A stretch of 43,399 bases of DNA from positions 1-43,399 of IMG/VR virus record IMGVR_UViG_3300050025_000104, one strand, 5' to 3'. The translations under genes were made by a program, and so were the position numbers. Positions within the stretch are counted from its first letter, which is position 1, and every line of letters starts with the position of its first letter. Source of the DNA: a virus. The notes under the pieces were generated by a model that made no database searches, was not told the DNA's origin, and saw only the letters and a list, made by a program, of their open reading frames with translations. This document shows positions 3,260 to 14,923 of this stretch, piece by piece.

Positions 3260-4465
3260 CTATTTCATGTAAACTTTTTTAGCTAAGATGCTTGAGAGTG
3301 TAGCCACCTGTATCGGTGGACCACCTGACGGTGGATGGGTGTGCGTCATTAGCCATTGTATCAACTGTAACCCAAGAACAGCTGGCTCGGAAGCATCTGC
3401 TGAGCCTAATTTCACAGAAGTAGCATCAATTACTTTGATCTTCTTCCAAGTCTCCGTACTTCCTTCGTCTCCTTGGATGCTGTGTGGACCTGTGATTACT
3501 TCAGTCAGAGAACCATCGACTGTCAACGTACGATCTTCTTTTACGTAGATAGTCTGTGCTCCCTCCACATCCAGGTTATCCGTACCATTGATCCGTATCT
3601 TACGGTCAGCCTGTATTGTCTCAGTGGTGCCGTCTTTACCAATACGTAGAACGTAGAGTGGACTTGTTACCGTACCATCTCTAGGGTCTATGTTGTCTGG
3701 AGCAATAGCCACTTCCAGGAAAGCCTCAGCTCCACTAGGTAACACAGGCTCCTTGAGTAAAGAGCCCACGCTTACCCTGATAGAAGCCATCTTGTCTTGA
3801 GCGAACTCTCTGGCTATCAGAGAGAACTCGGTTGGGGCGTTAGCTTGTGGTGTAGTTTCAGATGGATGCACCACCCAGCTCATCGACCCAGCAGCAGTGT
3901 TCAGCTCATAGTTCTCGCAGAAATCACGGATGTAGTTGCCTACGGGTATATACGCACGCTGACAAATATTCGTAGACCCTATCTGTAGAACCCCACCCCT
4001 TCGAAGGACCAGAAAATTCTCATCCCTACCTTGAAGCAAGATGTCACCTGGATTGAGCACTGGTCTGTTGGCTCGATAGCTGGCGTCAGTTCTTGCCTGC
4101 TCGGTGGTACCTGTAGATGTAGAGGTCTTCACTGCAGGTGGTGGCACTGAGGCGTCTGTACTTCCGGCTTCGGCAGGAGCTGCTTCTGGTGCTGTCAGGA
4201 ACCCCATTACGAAGGGAGACTCATCATCGGAGGGCCAGCACAACACACATATGGCACCTGGTTCAGGCAGGCAACAGAACCCTTCGCCATTATTGTAGTG
4301 CACGTATGGGGTCATCATCTGTACCCCAGCCACCTGCTTACCTGTGTGCTGAGATACCCAATCGAGTGTCATGTTCTGTGCGTTGACGCTGGCTACCACA
4401 CCAGTCTCACAGACGAAGCCTCTATTGCCTGTCTTGGCTGCCGAGTTCTTGAATGATGCGCTCAC
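3260..4465 (-). CDS. Baseplate or tail-spike-like protein (gpV/gp45-type), 401 aa
   Basis: Residues about 20-90 look like the OB-fold found at the start of phage baseplate spike proteins: a 'VASVN' strand, a 'VQMMTPYVHYNNGEGF' segment, then 'PEPGAICVLCWPSDDESPFVMGF', resembling the 'P.~G~~V~v.~~~~~~~pvV~G~' pattern of gpV, Mu gp45 and T4 gp5. A Pro/Thr/Ala linker follows near residues 95-130. The C-terminal part is beta-rich, with the repetitive 'I.i.g..~l.v.g' strands expected of a beta-helix spike. The 'THTHPPSGGP' near the end resembles the His-x-His metal site of membrane-piercing spikes. The start is GTG at 4465-4463 with GAGG five bases upstream. The upstream neighbour is the TnpB element, whose left edge lies within about 20 bases of this start codon. 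Confidence 0.65.
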   Translation of the reverse strand: MSASFKNSAAKTGNRGFVCETGVVASVNAQNMTLDWVSQHTGKQVAGVQMMTPYVHYNNGEGFCCLPEPGAICVLCWPSDDESPFVMGFLTAPEAAPAEAGSTDASVPPPAVKTSTSTGTTEQARTDASYRANRPVLNPGDILLQGRDENFLVLRRGGVLQIGSTNICQRAYIPVGNYIRDFCENYELNTAAGSMSWVVHPSETTPQANAPTEFSLIAREFAQDKMASIRVSVGSLLKEPVLPSGAEAFLEVAIAPDNIDPRDGTVTSPLYVLRIGKDGTTETIQADRKIRINGTDNLDVEGAQTIYVKEDRTLTVDGSLTEVITGPHSIQGDEGSTETWKKIKVIDATSVKLGSADASEPAVLGLQLIQWLMTHTHPPSGGPPIQVATLSSILAKKVYMK

Positions 4466-4484
4466 AATATCCTCGGCGTGGAAG

Positions 4485-4504
4485 CCGCCCCCTTTAGGAG
4501 GCGG
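4485..4504 (+). repeat. Left-end subterminal hairpin of the TnpB element
   Basis: The arms are CCGCC and GGCGG, then a single C/A mismatch, then CCT and AGG around a TT loop. The CTTTAG core and the mismatch position are the same as in the right-end hairpin at 5682-5701. Subterminal hairpins of this kind are the recognition sites used by the Y1 transposase TnpA in IS200/IS605 elements. Here TnpA would have to act in trans. Confidence 0.7.
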
Positions 4505-4563
4505 AGGAAACGCCGTCCGGCTCTTGGTTGCATTCCTGACCTTAGAGTAGTAGTATCTAAGGC

Positions 4564-5694
4564 GTGAAACTGGTTGCCGTTGCCAAATTGCTTCCGACTC
4601 CCGAGCAGTCCGCTGCTCTGCTGGAGACGCTTGAGCGCGTGAACGAGGCGTGCGGCTGGCTTGCCGAACGAGCTTTCGAGCTGAAGAGCGCCGACAAGCT
4701 CAAGCTGCAAGGGCTGTACTACCGAGACCTGCGCGAGAAGTTCGAGCTGTCCTCGCAGATGGCGGTGCGGGCGATCTCCAAGGTGGTCGAGGCGTACAAG
4801 CGGGACCGTACCCGCCAGCCCGCCTTCAGACCCCACGGTGCCATCGCCTACGACCAGAGGATCATGAGCTTCAAGGCGATGGACCGCGTGTCGCTGCTGA
4901 CCATCTCGGGCCGCATTCTCGTTCCCTACGTGGCCGGAGGGTACCACCGCGCTCGGCTCGAAGGCGTGCGAGGGCAGTCCGACCTTGTTCTCCGCAAGGG
5001 CAAGTGGTTCCTCTATGTGACCGTTGAGGTACCCGACGGTTCCCCTATTGACCCCGAAGGCTGGCTTGGTGTCGATCTTGGAATCCGCAACCTCGCAGTC
5101 GACTCCGATGGTGAGACCCACAGCGGCGCCGCTGTGGAAGCCACCCGCCAGCGCCACCAACGTCTCCGCAACATGCTCCAACCCATCGGAACCAAGTCGG
5201 CGAAACGCCACCTCAAAAAACTCTCGGGCAAGGAGGCCCGCTTCCGCTCCCACACCAACCACGTGATCTCGAAACACATCGTCGCCAAGGCTAAAGGCAC
5301 CGGGAGAGGGATTGCCGTCGAAGACTTGACGGGAATTCGCGACCGGGTAACTGTCAGAAAAGACGAGCGAGCGATGCACTCGGGATGGGCGTTTTTTCAG
5401 TTGCGTGCGTTCCTCAGCTACAAGTCCGCCATCGCCGGCGTCAAACTCGTGGCCGTGGACCCTCGCAACACCTCTCGGACTTGCCCAGCGTGCGGCTACA
5501 TCGACAAAGCCAACCGCAAGAGTCAGTCCGAGTTTGCTTGCAAGTCGTGCGACTTCGTTGACCATGCCGATCATGTCGGTGCGGTCAACATCGCACGCAG
5601 GACTGTTGTAAATCAGCCTATCGTCTCGAATTATTGTGATGGAAAACATTCGTGTTTGTCTGTCTCTGTTCAGGGGCAAAGCTGCCTGCTTTAG
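4564..5694 (+). CDS. tnpB: TnpB RNA-guided nuclease, 376 aa
   Basis: The N-terminal half is the helix-turn-helix and wedge region typical of TnpB. The split RuvC nuclease shows all three acidic motifs: Asp in 'GVDLGIRNLAV' (about residue 177), Glu in 'IAVEDLTGI' (about 258), and Asp in 'ADHVGAVNIARR' near the C terminus. A zinc ribbon (TCPACG, then CKSC) lies between the second and third. The length fits full-length TnpB. The start is GTG at 4564. The known function of the family is DNA cleavage guided by a right-end RNA. The last motif has 'HVGAVNI' where many relatives have 'xNAAxNI', but the Asp is kept, so an active enzyme is likely. Codon usage is more G+C-rich than the neighbours, and it is the only rightward gene in the first 14.9 kb. 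Confidence 0.9.
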   Translation: MKLVAVAKLLPTPEQSAALLETLERVNEACGWLAERAFELKSADKLKLQGLYYRDLREKFELSSQMAVRAISKVVEAYKRDRTRQPAFRPHGAIAYDQRIMSFKAMDRVSLLTISGRILVPYVAGGYHRARLEGVRGQSDLVLRKGKWFLYVTVEVPDGSPIDPEGWLGVDLGIRNLAVDSDGETHSGAAVEATRQRHQRLRNMLQPIGTKSAKRHLKKLSGKEARFRSHTNHVISKHIVAKAKGTGRGIAVEDLTGIRDRVTVRKDERAMHSGWAFFQLRAFLSYKSAIAGVKLVAVDPRNTSRTCPACGYIDKANRKSQSEFACKSCDFVDHADHVGAVNIARRTVVNQPIVSNYCDGKHSCLSVSVQGQSCLL

Positions 5695-5701
5695 CTGGCA
5701 G
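5682..5701 (+). repeat. Right-end hairpin, covering the tnpB stop and probable guide-RNA scaffold end
   Basis: CTGCC and GGCAG arms, a T/T mismatch, then GCT and AGC around a TT loop make the same fold as the left-end hairpin. The tnpB stop codon (TAG, 5692-5694) is in the loop and inner stem. In this family a non-coding guide RNA is made from the 3' end of tnpB and runs to the right end, so such an RNA probably covers the last 100-200 nt of the gene. That RNA is inferred, not seen. Confidence 0.65.
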
Positions 5702-5709
5702 TTCATTTA

Positions 5710-6324
5710 CTAGTATTCTCCTGGCTTTCCCTTACCGATCTCAGCACCGTATACAATAGTGTCTGGATTGGAATTAGCCACAAGAGTGCACCAATGTACT
5801 AGCTCGGATACTGACATAGAGTGCTTCATAAAATTGATCTTAGTGTGGACCCACTGTACGTTGCCGGGCACGTAGCCTACATCATTCTTAATCCTATCGA
5901 GAGATGCAGTAGAAAGATCACGCTCCACGTAGCTTGGATTCAAAACGAGGGGTACGCCTGTCAGGGCACACCTCTTTTTTTGCTTGAGAAACAGCTTCCA
6001 CGCGTCTTGGATCGTTATGGTTAGCTTATGTCCTCTACGTTTGGCACTGTTCACTATATTACGCCACTTGGTTCCGGACAGGTCACCTACTCCGTTATAG
6101 AAGTGGCTTCGTAGTCCTCTTTTGGCACAACCACACGACTTAGGTATCCCTCTAACACCCCTCTGAGCACGCAACAACTCAGACGTTTCTCGCCTCACCT
6201 CAGTACCACAGGCACACCTACACAACCACACAACATTTCCTCTAGCCGACCTATCAGACGTAGCTGTTACTGCAGTCAGCAGATCAAAGGTCTTACCAGT
6301 GAGATCCTTAGTCCTCCTGTCCAT
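5710..6324 (-). CDS. HNH homing-type endonuclease with an RNA-polymerase tail copy, 204 aa
   Basis: The N-terminal ~65 residues match a DNA-binding zinc module often found in phage HNH proteins: 'LTGKTFDLLTAV', CRCACG, then a 'PKSCGCA' end. The catalytic part has 'KKRCALTGVPL', 'TASLDRIKNDVGYVPGNVQWV' and 'KINFMK', the usual signature of the HNH family that includes group I intron and free-standing homing enzymes. The ATG (6324-6322) follows the RNA polymerase stop by one base (TAG C ATG), so it is probably translated by reinitiation. The final 15 codons spell 'IVYGAEIGK' then an ending in Tyr and TAG, nearly the same as the last residues of the polymerase. Synonymous differences at most third positions show the copy is not recent. 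The gene ends against the TnpB element. Confidence 0.85.
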   Translation of the reverse strand: MDRRTKDLTGKTFDLLTAVTATSDRSARGNVVWLCRCACGTEVRRETSELLRAQRGVRGIPKSCGCAKRGLRSHFYNGVGDLSGTKWRNIVNSAKRRGHKLTITIQDAWKLFLKQKKRCALTGVPLVLNPSYVERDLSTASLDRIKNDVGYVPGNVQWVHTKINFMKHSMSVSELVHWCTLVANSNPDTIVYGAEIGKGKPGEY

Positions 6325-6325
6325 G

Positions 6326-9300
6326 CTAGTATCCGACCTTTCCTTCTGGACTCTTACCTATTTCCGCCCCATAGACAATCGCTGGGATAGGATGTTGACT
6401 GTGGATGCTACTTGTCCAGCCACGCTGAGCTGCATCTATGATCGTTTCAGATAAGTTCTCGTGGTTCAGCTTTGCAATCCAGTCTTCCTGCATCTCAAGA
6501 GGCAATACGTTGACACCTTTGAGTATAGGCTCATGAATGATCGGACGAGAGCCCTTAGGCATAGTTCTGTTTATGTTGGAGACGTGTGCTGTGGAGGCGA
6601 AGTCACCACGAATGAGACCATCTGCAGACCCTGGATCTTTGATCTTAGTGAGGTTCGTCAAGGCTTTGACCACAACCTCATGGTTCCTTCTTCGAATACC
6701 AGAGCCAGCGTATGCACTGTGCAGTTCACTGGCCAGGTGTAGCTGAACAGGCTCTATACCTGTCAATGCCAGCATCTCGTGCGGATTCACGAGGCCTTCT
6801 GATAGAGGGCTACCCTTCTTGACTTCCATACCCACCTTCAATGGCTGGCCACCATAGGTAGGGGTACCTAAGGAGTGTGGGATGTAGTGGACGTGCCCTT
6901 CCACTGTAACCTCATGACCACCGGCAGGTGACGGAGCAATCTTCGTGACCTTACCGTTGAGTTCACTGAGCGTTGCAGATCCTGGCAGGGTCTTAGGAAA
7001 TGCAAGTAAGTTCTTCACGTGCGAGAAGTCGTCAACCAGTGCGCTCTTCGAAGATGCTGTACCACCTGTGTTGTGGTGCTTGATCCCACTGACATACAGA
7101 GTGCCTGTTTCCGTGGTTGCGTCGTACACATAAGCATCTGTGTACATCACATCCTTCACAACACTCACCAATCTGTACCCAGTAATCTCAGGCAATCTAG
7201 TAGGACTGACACCAGTAGTCTTTCTGACTTTCTCTGAAGCATGAAGTAATTCCTTTGCATCCTTAGTCATGCGGATGCGAATAGCAAAACCTTGATGCCT
7301 TGTTAGCTTTCTGATCGTAGTAGAAACAATAGAAGAAACTAGTCCTAGTCTTGTGCACAACAGAGCTATCTGCTGAACCAACACGAAGCTAGTAGAGTCT
7401 ATATTTATCGCATCAGGACCATCACTCTGAGGCAGTACCGTGCCATCACCATCGATCAAACCAATCAGCATCTCTACTAACCAGTCGGTAGGATACCCCA
7501 GGAAATCGAATGGTAGGTGCTTGTTGCTGGAGTATCTACCAAAGGTATCATTGAAGAATGTTCCCAACTTCAGACTATCCATTTCTACGTAACGCTTGTG
7601 ACGACGAGGCCGCCAGCCAGCCTTACGTAATCTGGACATGATCTTGTCTTGAATTGGTCCGCTTTTCTGAGATATCTGTACTTGGTACGGTTTCTCTACA
7701 GCACGCTTACTAGACTTCTTCCAGGCTGTGCTGCCCTCTGCTAAAAACACACCAGCTATGTATGCGTCTACGTCTAAGGTTGTAGCAGCCCTGACATACA
7801 TGATGGGAGATACGTCTCTATGTAGATAGACATCGTTCCGTAAAAGATCTGATGGGGGCAAAAAGGTGAGCTCCCCCATCTTCTCTATGGGTGCTTCTTG
7901 TGGAGATCCACACTGTCTACAGTACTGCCTAGACTTCTTGTGCGGATTTTTGAACTTGCGATAACCACACCTAGTACACCGTACTTTGTTTTCCCACACA
8001 CCTAGAGGGTGGTTATCCTGACAGATCGTAACCAGACCACCATCACCAACTAGCTTCATTGGCCTAGACGGTGGGTGTCTTCTAACGTGAGTAAGATTTA
8101 CCCACTCCGAATCCCATACTTGCCAACCCGACACACTCTTTACTTCCTCTGTACCATTCATATAGATCGGAGACTCAATAAGATCAAACAACGCCTCCAT
8201 AGTGATAGGAAGTACTCCAGTATGGGCACCACGAACAAACACTATAGATTTTGCGTGACTGCAGTGGAACGCCTTAAGTGCCAGCTGTGTCGTACGTTCT
8301 CCCAGCGCCTGACCCGCAAGTACACCTACGTTGAGTCCCTTCTCAGGCAATACACCATTCTCTGTGAGACCATAACAATTATGCGTGAGAAGACCATTAG
8401 CTGTGAACTTACGGCTATGCGTAGTGACATCATACACGTACTTGCAGTGTATCCGATCACTAACGTCTTTAACACGCAACACTGTTGCATACTGTTTATT
8501 TAGATCGTACTTACCATCACATGCCGACATACCTTGCATTTTCTGTGATCTACTCAGCCTATCGAGCATCGAACTATTCGCAGAGAATGTGAGGTGAAAG
8601 AAGTCTTTTCTAGTCTTAACCGCGTCTCCTTGTTCAGGAGTTTGTGTCTTACAGGATAGATCAGCACGAACACTGTGCCTAGATAGCCAATCTTGCACCT
8701 GAACTAATAGTGTATATGACGTAGATCCTATGAGTACTTCATGTGATCCATTAGCTCGCTCTCTAACATGCCCGTCTCCATCGATCAAACCAGCCACAAC
8801 ATCTCCGACATAGCTATCATCCCAACTTAGCCACGTAGTAGGAAGTACCTTTCGGTCACATAGTTCTAGCCCTCCTAGAACACTAACGAGTTCTCTAACT
8901 AGAGTGACGTCATTAAGTACGATGCCCGTTTCATTGACGTGTGGTTCATTTTTTGTAACAAACCTGCACGCTTCAATCATGCCTGGCCGCCACTGGTTGT
9001 CCTGCTGAGCAATACTTACAGATCTAGGATAGTCCCTATTCCTATCAGTAGAGCCCTCAGCCAGGTACAGACCTAACCAATATGGATTCAAAGTAGGCGT
9101 TTCTGGTTTACGCCCACGAAACTGTTTCTGAAAAGGGTAATACCTCAGTCTATCCCCAGGCATTACCTGATCTGCACGTATTTCTAGTCGTTCAGCTAGT
9201 TCCCAGGACTCTCGATCTACTGTCCAACTTCTCTCACAGTCTCTACAATATAAATATGCCTTATCATCTGGGCTCCTGTTGTCTATGGATATGCGTAATG

Positions 9301-12300
9301 ATCCGCACGTACATGCCCTAGGTCTCCACACTATAGCAGTATGATCTTCTGTAAGATGCTGAGTACGTCCATGCGTTGTTCTTATCTCTAACACAGCTTT
9401 ATGCGGCTCACGCGCATGACGTACAACCCTCTCCAAATCAACCCACTCTCCGTCATCAGAAATCTCCCACCCTCTGACTATTTTCACCTCTACACCACAG
9501 TCTGAGGTATTTATTGGAGAAAGCACCAAATCGAATAGTGCCTCTAGAGACAAGTTATGCATCACACCTGCGTGCTTCACCGTTACTACGGTTTCTGGAA
9601 TCATGGACTTCTGACAAATACCAGGTCCATGCAGACACCGCAGTGGTGACCTAACTACTACCTTACCCACATTGTTATTCCGTAGGGTGCTACGTATTTC
9701 TGGTGTGATCAAAGTACCAGCCTTGATGATGTGGCTACCTGCCTTGATATCTGCAGCAGTGAAGCGATCTAGTATGTCCTTCTCATCTACAGGCAGAGCT
9801 ATGCCCTTAGTGGTACCACAGTCAGTGTCCACGATCAGATTATTCATTACCGAGTTCATGACCTGCTTGCTGATGTAGCCAGGCTCCTGAACTGACTGGA
9901 CCTTCTGGATGATACCCTTACGAGAGCCACTGATAGCTGTCCAATAGTCAGCCACGTCCAGACCTTCAGAATAGGACCTACGTACGGGAGTAGGTATGAT
10001 CTCGCCCTTGTGATTGCTCATGAGCATGGGCGCAGCACGTATCTGCCTCAGGGTATCAGTACCACCCTTCATACCCACGTTGTGCAGGAGCATCAGATTG
10101 TTATCGCTCTCAGACACGGCCCTAAGATGCTTGTTCATCTCATCCGTAGCCTTGGCATAGATCTCAATCTGTTGTTGATCTTTGTGTGGACCAGTAAGCT
10201 TGTGTACCTTGGCATCAGCCTCAGCCAAGATCTTGTCTCTCATGTGGCGCTCAGGAGCTATGTCCTTCATGCCTATAGAGAAGGCTGTGTTCGTGGACCA
10301 CATGTTACCTAGGTCCTTCAGCTTGTTAGCTGACTCACTGTAATCACCTTTGTGATCTTTGCCGATCTCAGTGAACATGGCCTCTTGTGCCTTCTTATCC
10401 AAGGAGGCACTGCCCTCTAGCAACTTACGACGCATGCCCTCTGGTAGCGCACCTGCCACCATGAACCTTCCAACACCAGCCTTCATACCACCAACGGTCA
10501 CTCGATCTGTGAGCTTTATATCGCCCTTCCTAACAGCAGACTCCATGTCCTGCATGTTGGCGAACTTGTGATCAGTGTCCTTACCAGGCTGCATGATACC
10601 GTACAGACCTAACCTGCTCTCATTGGTAGGAGCGTACATTATCTCTCCAGTGGATGGACTGAAGAGGTTGCGTGATGGAAGCATCTTGTGTGCTTCAGCT
10701 ACAGCCTCAACACTGATAGGAACGAACGCACCCATGGCGTCACCATCAAAGTCAGCATTGAATCCACTGGTGACTAGCGGGTGAACTTGCACTGCCTTGC
10801 CGCCAACGATACGTGGCTTGAATGCCTGCACACCGTACTTGTGCAAGACAGGGTCTCGCTTCAGTAGGATAGGTCTGGTAGATATGACCTTCTCCAGTGC
10901 CCTATCCACAATCTCTCCACCCTCTGCCATCTTCTTCTGCGCCTGTAAGGGAGTGATGCCTAACAGATTTCGCAATTCACGAATCACGAAAGGTTTGTAG
11001 ACTTCCAGCGCTGCAGACTTGGGCAGGCCTACCTCATCCAATCCCAACGATGGCTCAGGGATGATGGTGCCACGCATAGACATGTCTTGCTTGCGCTCAA
11101 CCAACTGATCTTGGAAGAAGCCTTCCTTAGGAGAGCCACCCTTGGCACCAGTCCTTGGATCGATAACCTTCTTGCCGTGGATGTAATCCAGGATACCCCT
11201 GCGTACCTGCTTCGGATACCCACCGATACCAGCTAGTGCGCTAAGGCCATCGTACATTTCCTGGCGTACGTCTACCTTAGATGAGTCGTTGTCTGGGATG
11301 AGAGGAGACATCTTTGCGTACCTAGACGCAGACAGATGCAGGTTCTTGTACAGACCATTCAAGTCCTCTTCACTGATCGTTCCGTTAGGTAGCACTGGTA
11401 ATGGACGCATGGATGGCGGGAGTATTGGTACCGTCTTGGTCAGGTACGCTTCAACCGGAGTCATGTTCACCTTGTCCAGCGCCTGCAGAAGCTTCACCTT
11501 ACTGTTGGCGTGATCTAGGTACGTGCCCTTAAGTGTAGGCTTTTCTAGTGCTGTCTTAGCTGCAGCCAAATCCTTCTTGACGTTTATCTTACCGAGCATG
11601 TGCTCGAAAGCTTTGCCGCCTACCAGACCACCCTCAATCCTTTGAGAGTCACCGATCTTACCTGTCTTAGGATCGTATGCCAGTGAACCACCTACTAGCC
11701 CAATGAATTCCTTCTGCTTGATACCGAGCAGCCTGATGATGGCGCTCTCAAACACTGGGTTGGGTAGAGATTCTGGAAGTGTGTAGTGGGACCACTTAGT
11801 CCCCTCTAGCCCTCCTGTAATCTTTGGATCGAACAGACCGCCTATCTCAGGCTTCATGTTCTTTGCGGTGACCCATAGTGCAGGGTCTGTAATCTCACCG
11901 TTGCTTTGCTCTACGATCTGCTTGTCAGTCATAGGCATGAGGGTCAGGTTGTTTCCCGTCTTCTGTACGTTCACACCAAGGCCCCTGATGTACCCAAGGA
12001 ACTTGCTGTAAGCGAAGGTTGGCTTAGGAGTAGGCAGCATCTCACCAGCCTGCAGGGCAGACCAGAACTGATCTCCTTGAGCAGCGTCACTCTTGAGTGT
12101 CTGCATCTCCCGTAGGTTAGCCACTGCACCGTGAGCCAGCATGGAATACAGGCCCAGGGTACCTAAAGACTTGGCTCCCTGAGGACCGCCGCCCTTTGGG
12201 ATCAGGTTCTTATCGTAGGCGTATCCAGTACCACCAGCTCTAGAGCTCAGCTTCTTCTCTACCTGGTGGTGGAGTTTGAACACATGCATAGGACCAACGA

Positions 12301-14923
12301 GTACATCACCCATCTTCTTGTTGGTGAGTGGGTCTATGATCTCTTCTTTGTCAGACAGTCCATGCTTGGCCAAGTCTGCCGTCACCTGTGCATGGAAGTC
12401 AGCACCAGGAGCAAAGTTCTTAACCAGGTAGGGCTTGCCGGTCTTCTCTGCAATCTTAGCAGCAGCAACCTCAAGTACCTGCCCAAGGTTTGTTCTGCCG
12501 ATTACGCCCAGTGGATTCAAAAGAATCTCTAGATGCTTTCCATCTGCAGTACGTGGCATGTCGTGGTCTGGAACGATCTTAGTAACGATACCCTTGTTAC
12601 CGTGGCGTCCTGTCAACTTGTCACCAACGTCTAGCTGCTCTTCCGTCTTCACGTGAACAGCTACGTTCTTACCTATCTTCACAACCTCTTTGACTACGCC
12701 TGGGTAATCGCTGTCCCACTTGATACTCGAATCCTTGTACGGTTTGACGATGGACTTGTGTAATTTGGAGAGCTCCAGATCTTCTCGCCTCTCTGGGTCG
12801 TTAGATGCACGCAGAGCTGCAATCAAAGTGTCCCCAGGCATGATCACAGTACCTGGCTTTACTACGCCTTCTTCATCCAGCTTATCGAACTGTGCCTTGT
12901 TCAAGGCGTTCGGCATGTAAGCCTGGAACTTCCTTCGATCTAAGATGTGTGCGATGTCTCGCTCTAAGGAATGCCTATGCAAGTGCTCAGATGTCAGCTT
13001 CTTAGCTGCACTCTCACTGACCACGATACCATCGTCAAAGTTGTAGCCCTTGTATGGCATGAACCCAGCACGAAGGTTCGTTCCTATGGCCAAAGTACCG
13101 TTCTTCGTATAGTTCGTATCGGCTATGACCTGTTGTGCTTTTACTGTGTCTCCCACCTTCACTATGGGTTCGGCGTGAAGGAAGGCCTTGTCTTCATTGA
13201 GAGGGAAGTGATCGTAAATATGTACTTCCTTCTTCTCTCCATTAGGCTTCTTGATAATGATGGCATCTGGCTTGATCTTGTAGACCACACCATCAACTGG
13301 TGTTCTATGACTAGCAAAGCCACCGACTAGTGTATCGAAGCTAGTCTTACCAGCCATACTCTGAACGAGTGGAACCTCCCTGTGCTTCAAGGAGATAGCC
13401 TGTTCCATCTGTCTACCGGCCATGGTGCTACGATTGGGGTGATCAGATGGCATGAACGGGATCATGTTAGACGAGATTGAAAACATCTGAAGTGGGTCCT
13501 TCATTACGAAGTCCGCATCCTTCAAACTACCCTCATATATCTCGTTAGCAGGACCACTGATCTTGATATGAGATCCTATTGCCTTAGGCTTCCCATCAAC
13601 CCACGTTACTTGATCTGGTAGTACAACGTGAGACTTATACGCTACGGTTGGATTGACCTTTACATTCTTGCCAGTCTTAGCGTTGTACATGAGCACGGCC
13701 ACATCGTGCCCAATCTTTTGCACACCCAATGGCAACCGCAGGGTGATGCCCGTAGCATGGCCTTCTGGTGTGTGGATGGGGTCTAAGAATCCTAAGTGAG
13801 ACGGATCGATTAGCTTGGCATCATCAGACACTGTGTGCTCAGACTTGATACCGCCATCACCCATGATGGTAGTTTTCATCTGTGCCGAGATCATCTCTAG
13901 TGGGTTGGTCTGATCTGTTACGATAGCCAAAGAGTTCTTACCGAACATCTGCTTGATGGGTCGGTTAAATATTTCAGGAGCAACAATGTCACGCACCTTA
14001 GCTTTGCGATCAATATTGTTGCTCACCTTCTTCAAGATCTCACGAGAGCCCTTGATAATACGCTCTGCTGCGAAGTCCTCAATCGAGTGGAGGTCCTTGA
14101 ACATGAGAGCATCACGAGGGTCTGGCTTAGCCTCACCTCGAGATATTTTGAGAAGCTTGTCTGAAGCATCTAGTAGTGTATGCCCCGTAACATTCGTGTA
14201 CTCTTTACCTAGCGTGAACTTGGTCACCTCTGGACGAAGGATAGTCTTCTGCATCGTCTCCCAGAGATGGGCCTTAGCCTCATCAGGAGTGAGCTTGGTT
14301 GCCTTGTCTCCAGTAGATGCACGATAAAACTTGGCCAGCTCTTTGTTGGAGTCAGCATGGTTGACATCAACAATATCTTTACCCCAGCTCTTCTCTACCT
14401 CTTCATCTGACACACCCATGGCGTGCAAGAAAGGTTTGAGTGGCATGTTAGAGTTGCCATAGTTCAAAGTGAACTGTCGAGTCTTAGGATCAAAGTGAAT
14501 CTTGAATCCACCAGCAGCATTGAAGTGCGACTCGAGCGCACCGTCCTGCTTGATCATGTTGTATACACCAGGTTTCAAACGCCACTGGTTATCTATTTGA
14601 TACTCCTGCCCATCAACAATGTGGCTGAACCGACTGGTAACCTTTGGAAGATTGAGCAGATTCATTTTCTGCTTATCTATCACCGCACCAGTGGCGTTAT
14701 CCTTGAGAGCAAGGACCGCTTCTACAGGAACAGACCAAGTACGCCCACTAAGCTTGGCTTGTTTCTGCGACCTGAGATCATCCATATCCAGGTTATCTTT
14801 TACCGCTACACTCTGTAGCTCTAGCGTATTCTTCCGCCCGATAATGGGGAAGAGTCCGCTAACTGCATTTTGTACTCGGTCTTTGAGGAGTTCAAACCCC
14901 TCTTCCGGTGCAAGACGTGCCAA
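6326..14923 (-). CDS. Single-chain DNA-directed RNA polymerase, beta fused to beta-prime, with two inteins (2865 aa precursor)
   Basis: The beta part shows 'LDPIHTPEGHATGI', 'MPYKGYNFDDGIVVSE' and 'GDKLTGRHGNKG' followed by 'LNPLGVIGRTNLGQ', all canonical bacterial beta motifs. Near residue 1000 it passes into beta-prime with 'PILPPSMRPLPVLPNG', 'GLPKSAALEVYKPF' and 'ILLKRDPVLHKYGVQAF'. The catalytic 'NADFDGD' has Asp 1391, 1393 and 1395. Bridge-helix and trigger-loop motifs follow ('GQALGERTTQLALKAFH', then 'TGGTAS'). The N-terminal beta-prime zinc finger is absent, while the second zinc site is present. Removing two inteins of 410 and 398 residues gives about 2057 aa, far smaller than E. 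coli beta plus beta-prime. The start is TTG (14923-14921) with GAGGA four bases upstream. No alpha, omega or sigma gene is in the window. It probably transcribes late phage genes, which is an inference. Confidence 0.95.
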   Translation of the reverse strand: MARLAPEEGFELLKDRVQNAVSGLFPIIGRKNTLELQSVAVKDNLDMDDLRSQKQAKLSGRTWSVPVEAVLALKDNATGAVIDKQKMNLLNLPKVTSRFSHIVDGQEYQIDNQWRLKPGVYNMIKQDGALESHFNAAGGFKIHFDPKTRQFTLNYGNSNMPLKPFLHAMGVSDEEVEKSWGKDIVDVNHADSNKELAKFYRASTGDKATKLTPDEAKAHLWETMQKTILRPEVTKFTLGKEYTNVTGHTLLDASDKLLKISRGEAKPDPRDALMFKDLHSIEDFAAERIIKGSREILKKVSNNIDRKAKVRDIVAPEIFNRPIKQMFGKNSLAIVTDQTNPLEMISAQMKTTIMGDGGIKSEHTVSDDAKLIDPSHLGFLDPIHTPEGHATGITLRLPLGVQKIGHDVAVLMYNAKTGKNVKVNPTVAYKSHVVLPDQVTWVDGKPKAIGSHIKISGPANEIYEGSLKDADFVMKDPLQMFSISSNMIPFMPSDHPNRSTMAGRQMEQAISLKHREVPLVQSMAGKTSFDTLVGGFASHRTPVDGVVYKIKPDAIIIKKPNGEKKEVHIYDHFPLNEDKAFLHAEPIVKVGDTVKAQQVIADTNYTKNGTLAIGTNLRAGFMPYKGYNFDDGIVVSESAAKKLTSEHLHRHSLERDIAHILDRRKFQAYMPNALNKAQFDKLDEEGVVKPGTVIMPGDTLIAALRASNDPERREDLELSKLHKSIVKPYKDSSIKWDSDYPGVVKEVVKIGKNVAVHVKTEEQLDVGDKLTGRHGNKGIVTKIVPDHDMPRTADGKHLEILLNPLGVIGRTNLGQVLEVAAAKIAEKTGKPYLVKNFAPGADFHAQVTADLAKHGLSDKEEIIDPLTNKKMGDVLVGPMHVFKLHHQVEKKLSSRAGGTGYAYDKNLIPKGGGPQGAKSLGTLGLYSMLAHGAVANLREMQTLKSDAAQGDQFWSALQAGEMLPTPKPTFAYSKFLGYIRGLGVNVQKTGNNLTLMPMTDKQIVEQSNGEITDPALWVTAKNMKPEIGGLFDPKITGGLEGTKWSHYTLPESLPNPVFESAIIRLLGIKQKEFIGLVGGSLAYDPKTGKIGDSQRIEGGLVGGKAFEHMLGKINVKKDLAAAKTALEKPTLKGTYLDHANSKVKLLQALDKVNMTPVEAYLTKTVPILPPSMRPLPVLPNGTISEEDLNGLYKNLHLSASRYAKMSPLIPDNDSSKVDVRQEMYDGLSALAGIGGYPKQVRRGILDYIHGKKVIDPRTGAKGGSPKEGFFQDQLVERKQDMSMRGTIIPEPSLGLDEVGLPKSAALEVYKPFVIRELRNLLGITPLQAQKKMAEGGEIVDRALEKVISTRPILLKRDPVLHKYGVQAFKPRIVGGKAVQVHPLVTSGFNADFDGDAMGAFVPISVEAVAEAHKMLPSRNLFSPSTGEIMYAPTNESRLGLYGIMQPGKDTDHKFANMQDMESAVRKGDIKLTDRVTVGGMKAGVGRFMVAGALPEGMRRKLLEGSASLDKKAQEAMFTEIGKDHKGDYSESANKLKDLGNMWSTNTAFSIGMKDIAPERHMRDKILAEADAKVHKLTGPHKDQQQIEIYAKATDEMNKHLRAVSESDNNLMLLHNVGMKGGTDTLRQIRAAPMLMSNHKGEIIPTPVRRSYSEGLDVADYWTAISGSRKGIIQKVQSVQEPGYISKQVMNSVMNNLIVDTDCGTTKGIALPVDEKDILDRFTAADIKAGSHIIKAGTLITPEIRSTLRNNNVGKVVVRSPLRCLHGPGICQKSMIPETVVTVKHAGVMHNLSLEALFDLVLSPINTSDCGVEVKIVRGWEISDDGEWVDLERVVRHAREPHKAVLEIRTTHGRTQHLTEDHTAIVWRPRACTCGSLRISIDNRSPDDKAYLYCRDCERSWTVDRESWELAERLEIRADQVMPGDRLRYYPFQKQFRGRKPETPTLNPYWLGLYLAEGSTDRNRDYPRSVSIAQQDNQWRPGMIEACRFVTKNEPHVNETGIVLNDVTLVRELVSVLGGLELCDRKVLPTTWLSWDDSYVGDVVAGLIDGDGHVRERANGSHEVLIGSTSYTLLVQVQDWLSRHSVRADLSCKTQTPEQGDAVKTRKDFFHLTFSANSSMLDRLSRSQKMQGMSACDGKYDLNKQYATVLRVKDVSDRIHCKYVYDVTTHSRKFTANGLLTHNCYGLTENGVLPEKGLNVGVLAGQALGERTTQLALKAFHCSHAKSIVFVRGAHTGVLPITMEALFDLIESPIYMNGTEEVKSVSGWQVWDSEWVNLTHVRRHPPSRPMKLVGDGGLVTICQDNHPLGVWENKVRCTRCGYRKFKNPHKKSRQYCRQCGSPQEAPIEKMGELTFLPPSDLLRNDVYLHRDVSPIMYVRAATTLDVDAYIAGVFLAEGSTAWKKSSKRAVEKPYQVQISQKSGPIQDKIMSRLRKAGWRPRRHKRYVEMDSLKLGTFFNDTFGRYSSNKHLPFDFLGYPTDWLVEMLIGLIDGDGTVLPQSDGPDAINIDSTSFVLVQQIALLCTRLGLVSSIVSTTIRKLTRHQGFAIRIRMTKDAKELLHASEKVRKTTGVSPTRLPEITGYRLVSVVKDVMYTDAYVYDATTETGTLYVSGIKHHNTGGTASSKSALVDDFSHVKNLLAFPKTLPGSATLSELNGKVTKIAPSPAGGHEVTVEGHVHYIPHSLGTPTYGGQPLKVGMEVKKGSPLSEGLVNPHEMLALTGIEPVQLHLASELHSAYAGSGIRRRNHEVVVKALTNLTKIKDPGSADGLIRGDFASTAHVSNINRTMPKGSRPIIHEPILKGVNVLPLEMQEDWIAKLNHENLSETIIDAAQRGWTSSIHSQHPIPAIVYGAEIGKSPEGKVGY
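7070..8263 (-). other. Intein 2 (LAGLIDADG), inserted in the trigger loop
   Basis: This covers precursor residues 2221-2618 (398 aa). It begins with Cys directly after the extein 'LKAFH' and ends 'GIKHHN' before Thr+1 of 'TGGTAS', so the splice residues (Cys1, penultimate His, terminal Asn, Thr+1) are intact. Block B is degenerate ('CQDNHPLGVW'). Two LAGLIDADG motifs are present, 'IAGVFLAEGST' and 'LIGLIDGDGTV', with block F 'YVYDATTETGTLYVSG'. A zinc ribbon (CTRCG, then CRQCG) sits between block B and the endonuclease. The extein His before the junction aligns with E. coli beta-prime His936, the trigger-loop residue. Confidence 0.93.
8378..9607 (-). other. Intein 1 (LAGLIDADG), inserted at the second zinc site of beta-prime
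   Basis: This covers precursor residues 1773-2182 (410 aa). It begins with Ser after the extein 'GPGICQK' and ends 'GLLTHN' before Cys+1 of 'CYGLTENG'. Block B is clear ('TQHLTEDHTAIVW'). The endonuclease motifs are 'LGLYLAEGST' and 'VAGLIDGDGHV', and block F is 'KYVYDVTTHSRKFTANG'. A zinc ribbon (CTCG, then YCRDC) follows block B. Cys+1 (residue 2183) aligns with E. coli beta-prime Cys898, so the polymerase zinc site C1763, C1770 and C2183 plus an upstream Cys can form only after splicing. It resembles intein 2 throughout. Confidence 0.93.

Follow-up and report, generated by a model that had tools for sequence, protein, structure and literature searches.

The HNH endonuclease gene that follows the RNA polymerase gene in a tailed phage is very probably an intron-less homing element that travels as a unit of variant target-gene end, stop codon and HNH open reading frame (ORF). 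This explanation as a whole rests on comparison of sequences, and the cleavage and homing that it implies are inferred. Because the element brings a reworded copy of the gene end that it displaces, the essential gene would still work.

An HNH gene without an intron at the end of the polymerase gene

The window, meaning the whole stretch of DNA analysed, is a 43.4-kb virus record (43,399 nucleotides, IMGVR_UViG_3300050025_000104), and the features discussed here are collected in Table 1. The polymerase ORF matches the Pfam families RNA_pol_Rpb2_6 (4e-56), Rpb1_2 (1.5e-24), LAGLIDADG_3 and Intein_splicing. The HNH ORF goes unrecognised by Pfam and NCBIfam, and a profile search of the PDB finds no chain at E 0.1; its homology to HNH-type nucleases comes from PHROG families 3322 (2.4e-19), 374 (7.6e-19) and 3118 (4.3e-16).

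Table 1. Features of the window around the polymerase/HNH junction.
Feature	Position (nt)	Strand	Basis
Fused beta-beta' RNA polymerase of a tailed phage, 2865 aa, two intein-like LAGLIDADG insertions	6326..14923	-	ORF
Current polymerase 3' end, IVYGAEIGKSPEGKVGY + TAG, an L134-like replacement tail	6326..6379	-	Tail comparison
Whole HNH ORF, 204 aa	5710-6324	-	ORF list
HNH homing-endonuclease core	5758..6324	-	PHROG matches and predicted fold
Resident polymerase tail after displacement, IVYGAEIGKGKPGEY + TAG, forming the C terminus of the HNH ORF	5710..5757	-	L137 match, pLDDT < 50
IS605-type TnpB element	about 4478..5709 (ends approximate, by eye)	+	TnpB ORF
gp5-like baseplate hub gene, GTG start	3260..4465	-	PHROG 430 and Gp5_C

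The HNH ATG is found one base past the polymerase TAG, so that the TAG-C-ATG junction described in a sequence-only reading of this DNA (GGATACTAGCATGGAC) is confirmed. HNH is an ORF of its own after the polymerase stop, outside any intron or intein (ORFs and Rfam, 4400-6500). An intron is rejected, since Rfam gives no intron match at 4400-6500, and a target gene closed by its own stop codon ahead of the HNH ORF does not meet the criterion for group I intron or intein splicing; the earlier suggestion that the gene was entered without an intron is borne out on both counts. With the two intein-like insertions inside the polymerase ORF, which are similar to LAGLIDADG endonucleases, three homing-type elements are associated with this one gene.

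The TnpB element (window 4466-5709) exactly fills the gap from the HNH stop codon to the start of the baseplate gene, which is the old polymerase/baseplate junction, and its ORF (4564-5694) matches Cas12f1-like_TNB (3e-20) and OrfB_IS605 (2e-9) in Pfam. Judging from gene order, the start of the baseplate hub gene would originally, before the insertions, have overlapped the polymerase stop. TnpB takes its guide from flanking sequence. The guide would here derive from the displaced polymerase tail, which would direct TnpB to the same empty site as the HNH nuclease.

The polymerase and the HNH protein share a C-terminal tail

The translated polymerase ends HPIPAIVYGAEIGKSPEGKVGY and the translated HNH protein SNPDTIVYGAEIGKGKPGEY, each at its stop. 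IVYGAEIGK is common to both ends (9/9 residues, 21/27 bases identical), and all six base differences are silent, confirming the earlier observations that both genes end IVYGAEIGK...Y-TAG and that their third codon positions differ. The residues beyond are unlike (SPEGKVGY vs GKPGEY), a difference that is informative on the origins of the two tails. When upstream-gene tails are scored against HNH ends the window reaches 50, a value attained by none of 3966 mismatched pairs (unrelated upstream-gene tails vs other HNH ends, from the first 71 loci), for which the maximum is 44 and the 99.9% level is 35. By this control, the match in the window is beyond chance. Scores of at least 36 occur at 5 of the 71 loci in this first set and at 16/103 in a larger one, for which 113 of 160 loci were entered (the rest being mostly contigs already examined) and an upstream ORF was lacking at 10 of those 113. 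The same contig was at times fetched repeatedly (L005/L184/L288; L049/L055/L154/L368; L054/L367; L001/L044/L133).

A C-terminal motif general to the HNH family, its resemblance to the polymerase being coincidental, was what the sequence-only reading had named as its own refutation. That attempt at refutation fails, in that the tail changes with the neighbouring gene. We found no supporting point for such a motif and give it next to no credence: IVYGAE is absent from all others of the first 43 HNH loci, save for the polymerase of the near-identical L001, tails track the neighbouring gene, and the mismatched pairs never attain the window score. A family-wide motif or domain is rejected on these three grounds. 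In the AlphaFold model of the HNH protein, pLDDT falls below 50 only at residues 192-204 and the last helix spans 172-185, from which the shared tail is predicted to be an appendage outside the folded domain.

Uninterrupted polymerases assign the two tails to different alleles

Searching with the final 246 residues of the polymerase yielded 9 loci, and an alignment search yielded 51, of which 48 have no HNH of the window family within 1.8 kb. The polymerase stop overlaps or abuts the baseplate-gene start in the closest HNH-less relatives; the baseplate gene comes directly after the polymerase in L045-L048, and in L048/L137 the stop and start overlap directly. The L048/L137 polymerase ends IVYGAEVGKGKPGEY, the form found at the HNH end in the window, and the L045/L134 polymerase ends IVYGAEIGKGPEGKVGY, the form found at the window polymerase end. 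Ranked over HNH-less RNAP loci, the left (polymerase) tail of the window is best matched by L134 (40.3, next 16.6) and the right (HNH) tail by L137 (34.3, next 28.3). The last 51 polymerase bases are L134-like (44/51 nt) and the HNH tail agrees with L137 at 42/48 nt, whereas for the stretch of polymerase body between -111 and -54 the nearer relative is L137 (0.81, against 0.67 for L134). We read the polymerase 3' region as the mosaic that the insertion model predicts, with an L137-like body and an L134-like end.

Since the window tails are two polymerase alleles, the resident tail now lies in the HNH ORF and a foreign tail stands in its place; on the same alignments, the silent differences between them are mainly those of two different alleles, not of drift after insertion. 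The central proposal of the sequence-only reading, an HNH gene inserted in the last polymerase codons with a replacement tail and the original tail made into the HNH C terminus, thus survives the comparison by which it was to be judged, namely alignment with the uninterrupted ends of HNH-less relatives, in which one window tail goes with L134 and the other with L137; it is supported too by the empty sites at NrdJ described below. Even the nearest HNH-less relatives share only ~75% nt identity with the window, so the breakpoints in the window are approximate, and no donor phage with an L134-like tail followed by the window HNH was found. In HNH-less L144, ATGCATAAACCACCCAAAGATATAAG lies directly past the polymerase stop and reads HKPPKDIR, resembling that gene's own tail GKPPKDLPG; this repeat is possibly a scar left by loss of an HNH insertion.

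Other HNH genes are linked to RNAP. L054 has the polymerase tail GMAWGREFGLGTKEQPWLY and the HNH tail GMAYGKEFGKGTEKEPWLY, which differ at 22/57 bases, 14 of them at third positions, and the HNH tail is closer to the uninterrupted L164/L165 (27.3 vs 21.3). The HNH of L049/L055 has 50% identity to that of the window, and the tail copy VHGAEIGKGKHPWEY is present in the DNA in the +1 frame relative to HNH. Four of the seven untruncated RNAP-linked HNHs lack a tail copy (L056, L369, L370 and L371, the last three classed as RNAP from their upstream tails). In the near-identical phage L001 (same contig as L044 and L133) the HNH is truncated at about codon 90 and TnpB is missing; at L001 2387-2737 a deletion has joined this point of the HNH to the left edge of the TnpB element and took the displaced tail along with tnpB. 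On this evidence the L001 HNH appears to be decaying, with the polymerase keeping its imported tail.

Near-identical empty sites at a ribonucleotide reductase gene

The HNH relatives in L006-L009 follow a class II ribonucleotide reductase (NrdJ; TIGR02505, Pfam RNR-II) that ends ..CEIVDL, and the HNH itself ends ..CEIVDLT. A search with the NrdJ C terminus returned 80 loci, 6 with an HNH directly after the gene and 74 without. Two of the comparisons that this allows are between genomes with 97% identical gene bodies, polymorphic for presence of HNH at one site (L184/L186, L199/L201); at RNAP, such polymorphism is seen only in more distant relatives. L184/L185 (HNH+) and L186 (HNH-) share 291/300 nt of the left body up to ..TGTGTTGG, after which the HNH+ contigs have an unlike end, AACTGTGAAGTGGTCGATCTAACTTGA (left tail 15/24 vs L186), and then the HNH ORF; past HNH stand the resident end TTGGTGGCTCATGTGAAATCGTGGACCTGACCTGA (right tail 35/36) and a following 200 nt identical at 188 positions. 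The corresponding values for L199/L200 vs L201 are 290/300 for the left body, 11/24 for the left tail and 35/36 for the right tail, with 169 and 176 of 200 identical downstream. The added unit of 536-539 nt consists of a recoded gene end, a stop codon and the HNH gene, with the untouched resident end downstream, and the recipient loses nothing. As far as sequence alone can do so, these near-identical empty sites display the insertion mechanism directly, to the base.

They also decide against a tandem duplication, in which the gene's 3' end was doubled within one genome, HNH landed between the copies and the copies drifted apart. Duplication gives the same tail-HNH-tail order, and the window alone, with two tails identical at 21/27 nt, cannot exclude it; it predicts, however, a conserved functional left copy and a drifting freed copy, and NrdJ shows the reverse, the right copy being all but identical to the empty allele and the left ones diverged beside a 97% identical body. 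The window tails, for their part, best match two different alleles. Duplication in place is accordingly rejected on the empty-site pairs and the two-allele window tails, and we would give it only a slim chance. An even slimmer one goes to an assembly artefact fusing two phage strains in metagenomes. All key loci are indeed uncultivated contigs, but in each empty-site comparison two contigs, assembled from different samples, represent the HNH+ member, the same NrdJ junctions come up again across samples (L184/L185, L199/L200, L006/L007, L008/L009), and L001 repeats the left polymerase-HNH junction of the window; assembly error is rejected on this repetition.

For the six codons of CEIVDL, we compared 12 distinct left/right NrdJ pairs with the 74 HNH-less tails. 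The mean distance to HNH-less tails is 5.04 for left and 3.82 for right tails, against 3.85 for distinct HNH-less tails among themselves. Left tails are more distant than right ones (Wilcoxon p 0.0005) and than HNH-less tails (p 4e-6), whereas right tails do not differ from HNH-less ones (p 0.89); of the 72 codons compared between left and right tails, 43 have changed silently and 11 non-silently. Because the loci are phylogenetically non-independent and the HNH-less set was picked for its resemblance to HNH+ NrdJ genes, the p-values serve only as a guide. Judged by these distances, the left (inserted) NrdJ ends are unusually divergent and foreign, and the displaced ends resemble those of genes that were never interrupted. 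A foreign allele would diverge too, and divergence alone is therefore no proof of selection for recoding.

The displaced tail is a relic

The tail copy is in frame with HNH in the window, L054 and most NrdJ cases. It lies behind a TAG in L331 and in the +1 frame in L320/L321, L402 and L400, and in L119 it is about 100 nt downstream. With the copy out of frame or behind a stop at several loci, it is a DNA relic rather than a protein domain, and the tail fused to HNH is a passive relic. The contrary idea, that it is a functional HNH module, for instance a target-mimic peptide that binds partners or recruits the nuclease to the RNAP/RNR complex, could appeal to the in-frame cases and to the silence of all six nucleotide differences in the nine shared codons. 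We consider it improbable, given the copies that cannot be read with HNH (L049, L331, L320, L400, L402, L119), the many family members without a tail, and an AlphaFold model in which the tail is the only disordered stretch.

Among 88 HNH loci, the HNH ends C-E-[ILVM] in 11/22 that follow NrdJ and in 1/66 others, and the sole exception, L093, also follows an NrdJ. A tail copy is nevertheless lacking in about half of the NrdJ-linked HNHs; family members without one were inserted after the stop or have lost the copy. The HNH of L342 ends EVDIVLPK, which matches the NrdJ ends of L346/L347 (CEIDIVLPK) and is unlike its own NrdJ; going by this match, it is again a displaced resident allele. HNH ends that resemble the end of an upstream gene which is neither RNR nor RNAP occur in L069, L095 and L105 (IKAEVAV/IKYEVAI, SHIVG, YRRFY), possible further target genes whose matches are too short to support a claim. 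In named phages, the tail copy was absent in the 5 checked of 13 HNH neighbourhoods. A scan of genome contigs gave 11 relatives, mostly cyanobacterial. In crAssphage cr111_1 (L283, 2225-4122) an HNH relative lies between two annotated flavin-dependent thymidylate synthase pieces, another essential-gene insertion, but one in which the gene is split.

Proposed mechanism

The insertion point, as read from the alignments, is a few codons ahead of the stop of the essential gene. The target reads on into the insert's own copy of its last codons, mostly silently different, and remains intact. The resident last codons and stop stay downstream, either in frame, where they form the HNH C terminus, or as a relic that is out of frame or untranslated. 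The remaining steps are inferred. The HNH enzyme would cut the gene end of co-infecting phages that lack HNH, and an HNH+ donor would serve as template for repairing the break; the left homology arm would be the gene body, and the right arm the displaced resident tail together with the gene that follows. Because the new tail is divergent, the occupied allele may escape re-cutting, and the two tails may be kept from recombining with loss of HNH. HNH translation would be coupled to that of the target through their stop and start, which are observed to overlap or to lie next to each other. In the window, the target is the phage RNA polymerase, whose resident tail was L137-like and whose imported tail is L134-like.

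Taken jointly, these elements could be natural home-and-rescue gene drives of phages. On this reading, selection has maintained the divergence of the carried tail, which protects the rescued gene from the nuclease and leaves no way of repairing the gene that does not copy HNH too, and the plan is reused at several essential genes, shifting strain-specific gene-end alleles between phages; we regard this as evenly poised between right and wrong. Insertions of this type are shown at RNA polymerase and NrdJ, and elsewhere there are weaker candidates. In the HomeR gene drive, the rescue copy is reportedly recoded. HomeR shares with the elements here homing into an essential gene together with a rescue copy, although, being an engineered, synthetic CRISPR system in Drosophila, it offers likeness of logic and not descent (PMC7968924).

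Relation to known elements

Fungal mitochondrial mORFs with C-terminal duplications are described in Allomyces macrogynus atp6, Rhizopus atp9 and Mortierella cox2, and Glomus mORFs target atp6, atp9, cox2 and nad3 (PMC3630166). They have in common with the phage elements an endonuclease ORF near the 3' end, a supplied foreign C terminus with the native one left downstream, and a native copy that matches close relatives beside an inserted copy that has diverged, largely silently (PMC3630166). They differ in being LAGLIDADG or GIY-YIG enzymes of organelles, whereas here HNH enzymes of phages occupy RNA polymerase and class II ribonucleotide reductase genes and the displaced tail usually serves as HNH's own C terminus. 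Of the mORF features tested, a diverged inserted and a displaced native C terminus are met, and LAGLIDADG/GIY-YIG in mitochondrial DNA is not; the phage HNH elements work like fungal mORFs and are not members of them. The fungal mitochondrial precedent is known, and what is new here is the phage HNH form at two essential genes. In the open-licence literature, to which our search was confined, no phage case of tail replacement was found.

The mob and seg genes of T4 are free-standing phage homing endonucleases. With elements of this kind the HNH genes share a position beside essential genes, the lack of an intron and spread by recombination, which is presumed here (PMC10448857). The passages on them describe no replacement gene end, whereas here insertion is inside the coding sequence and the missing codons are carried along (PMC10448857). 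Reviews of phage homing endonuclease genes and RNR genes place such genes near or inside essential genes, without a replacement tail in the sections accessible to us (PMC10448857, PMC3653736). The intron-encoded HNH gp210 of PhiPA3 cuts the PhiKZ RNAP gene, so that in that case as well the target of an HNH is the conserved RNA polymerase gene of a phage; the difference is that a group I intron keeps that gene functional, and here there is no intron and a recoded tail (PMC11620839). In the same study, recoding of the target restores resistance, which indicates that recoding can block such an enzyme (PMC11620839).

Implications

The arrangement explains why a selfish gene that lacks an intron can sit in the conserved last codons of a gene its carrier cannot do without and yet leave that carrier alive, and natural insertions with near-identical empty sites are available for testing it. 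For annotation, it warns that the C-terminal residues of phage RNAP and RNR genes beside an HNH may be foreign and that short repeats at HNH C termini are scars. The natural persistence of recoded rescue tails bears on the stability of engineered rescue drives. As a phage counterpart of the fungal mitochondrial elements, these genes suggest that the combination of a nuclease with a replacement gene end arose more than once.
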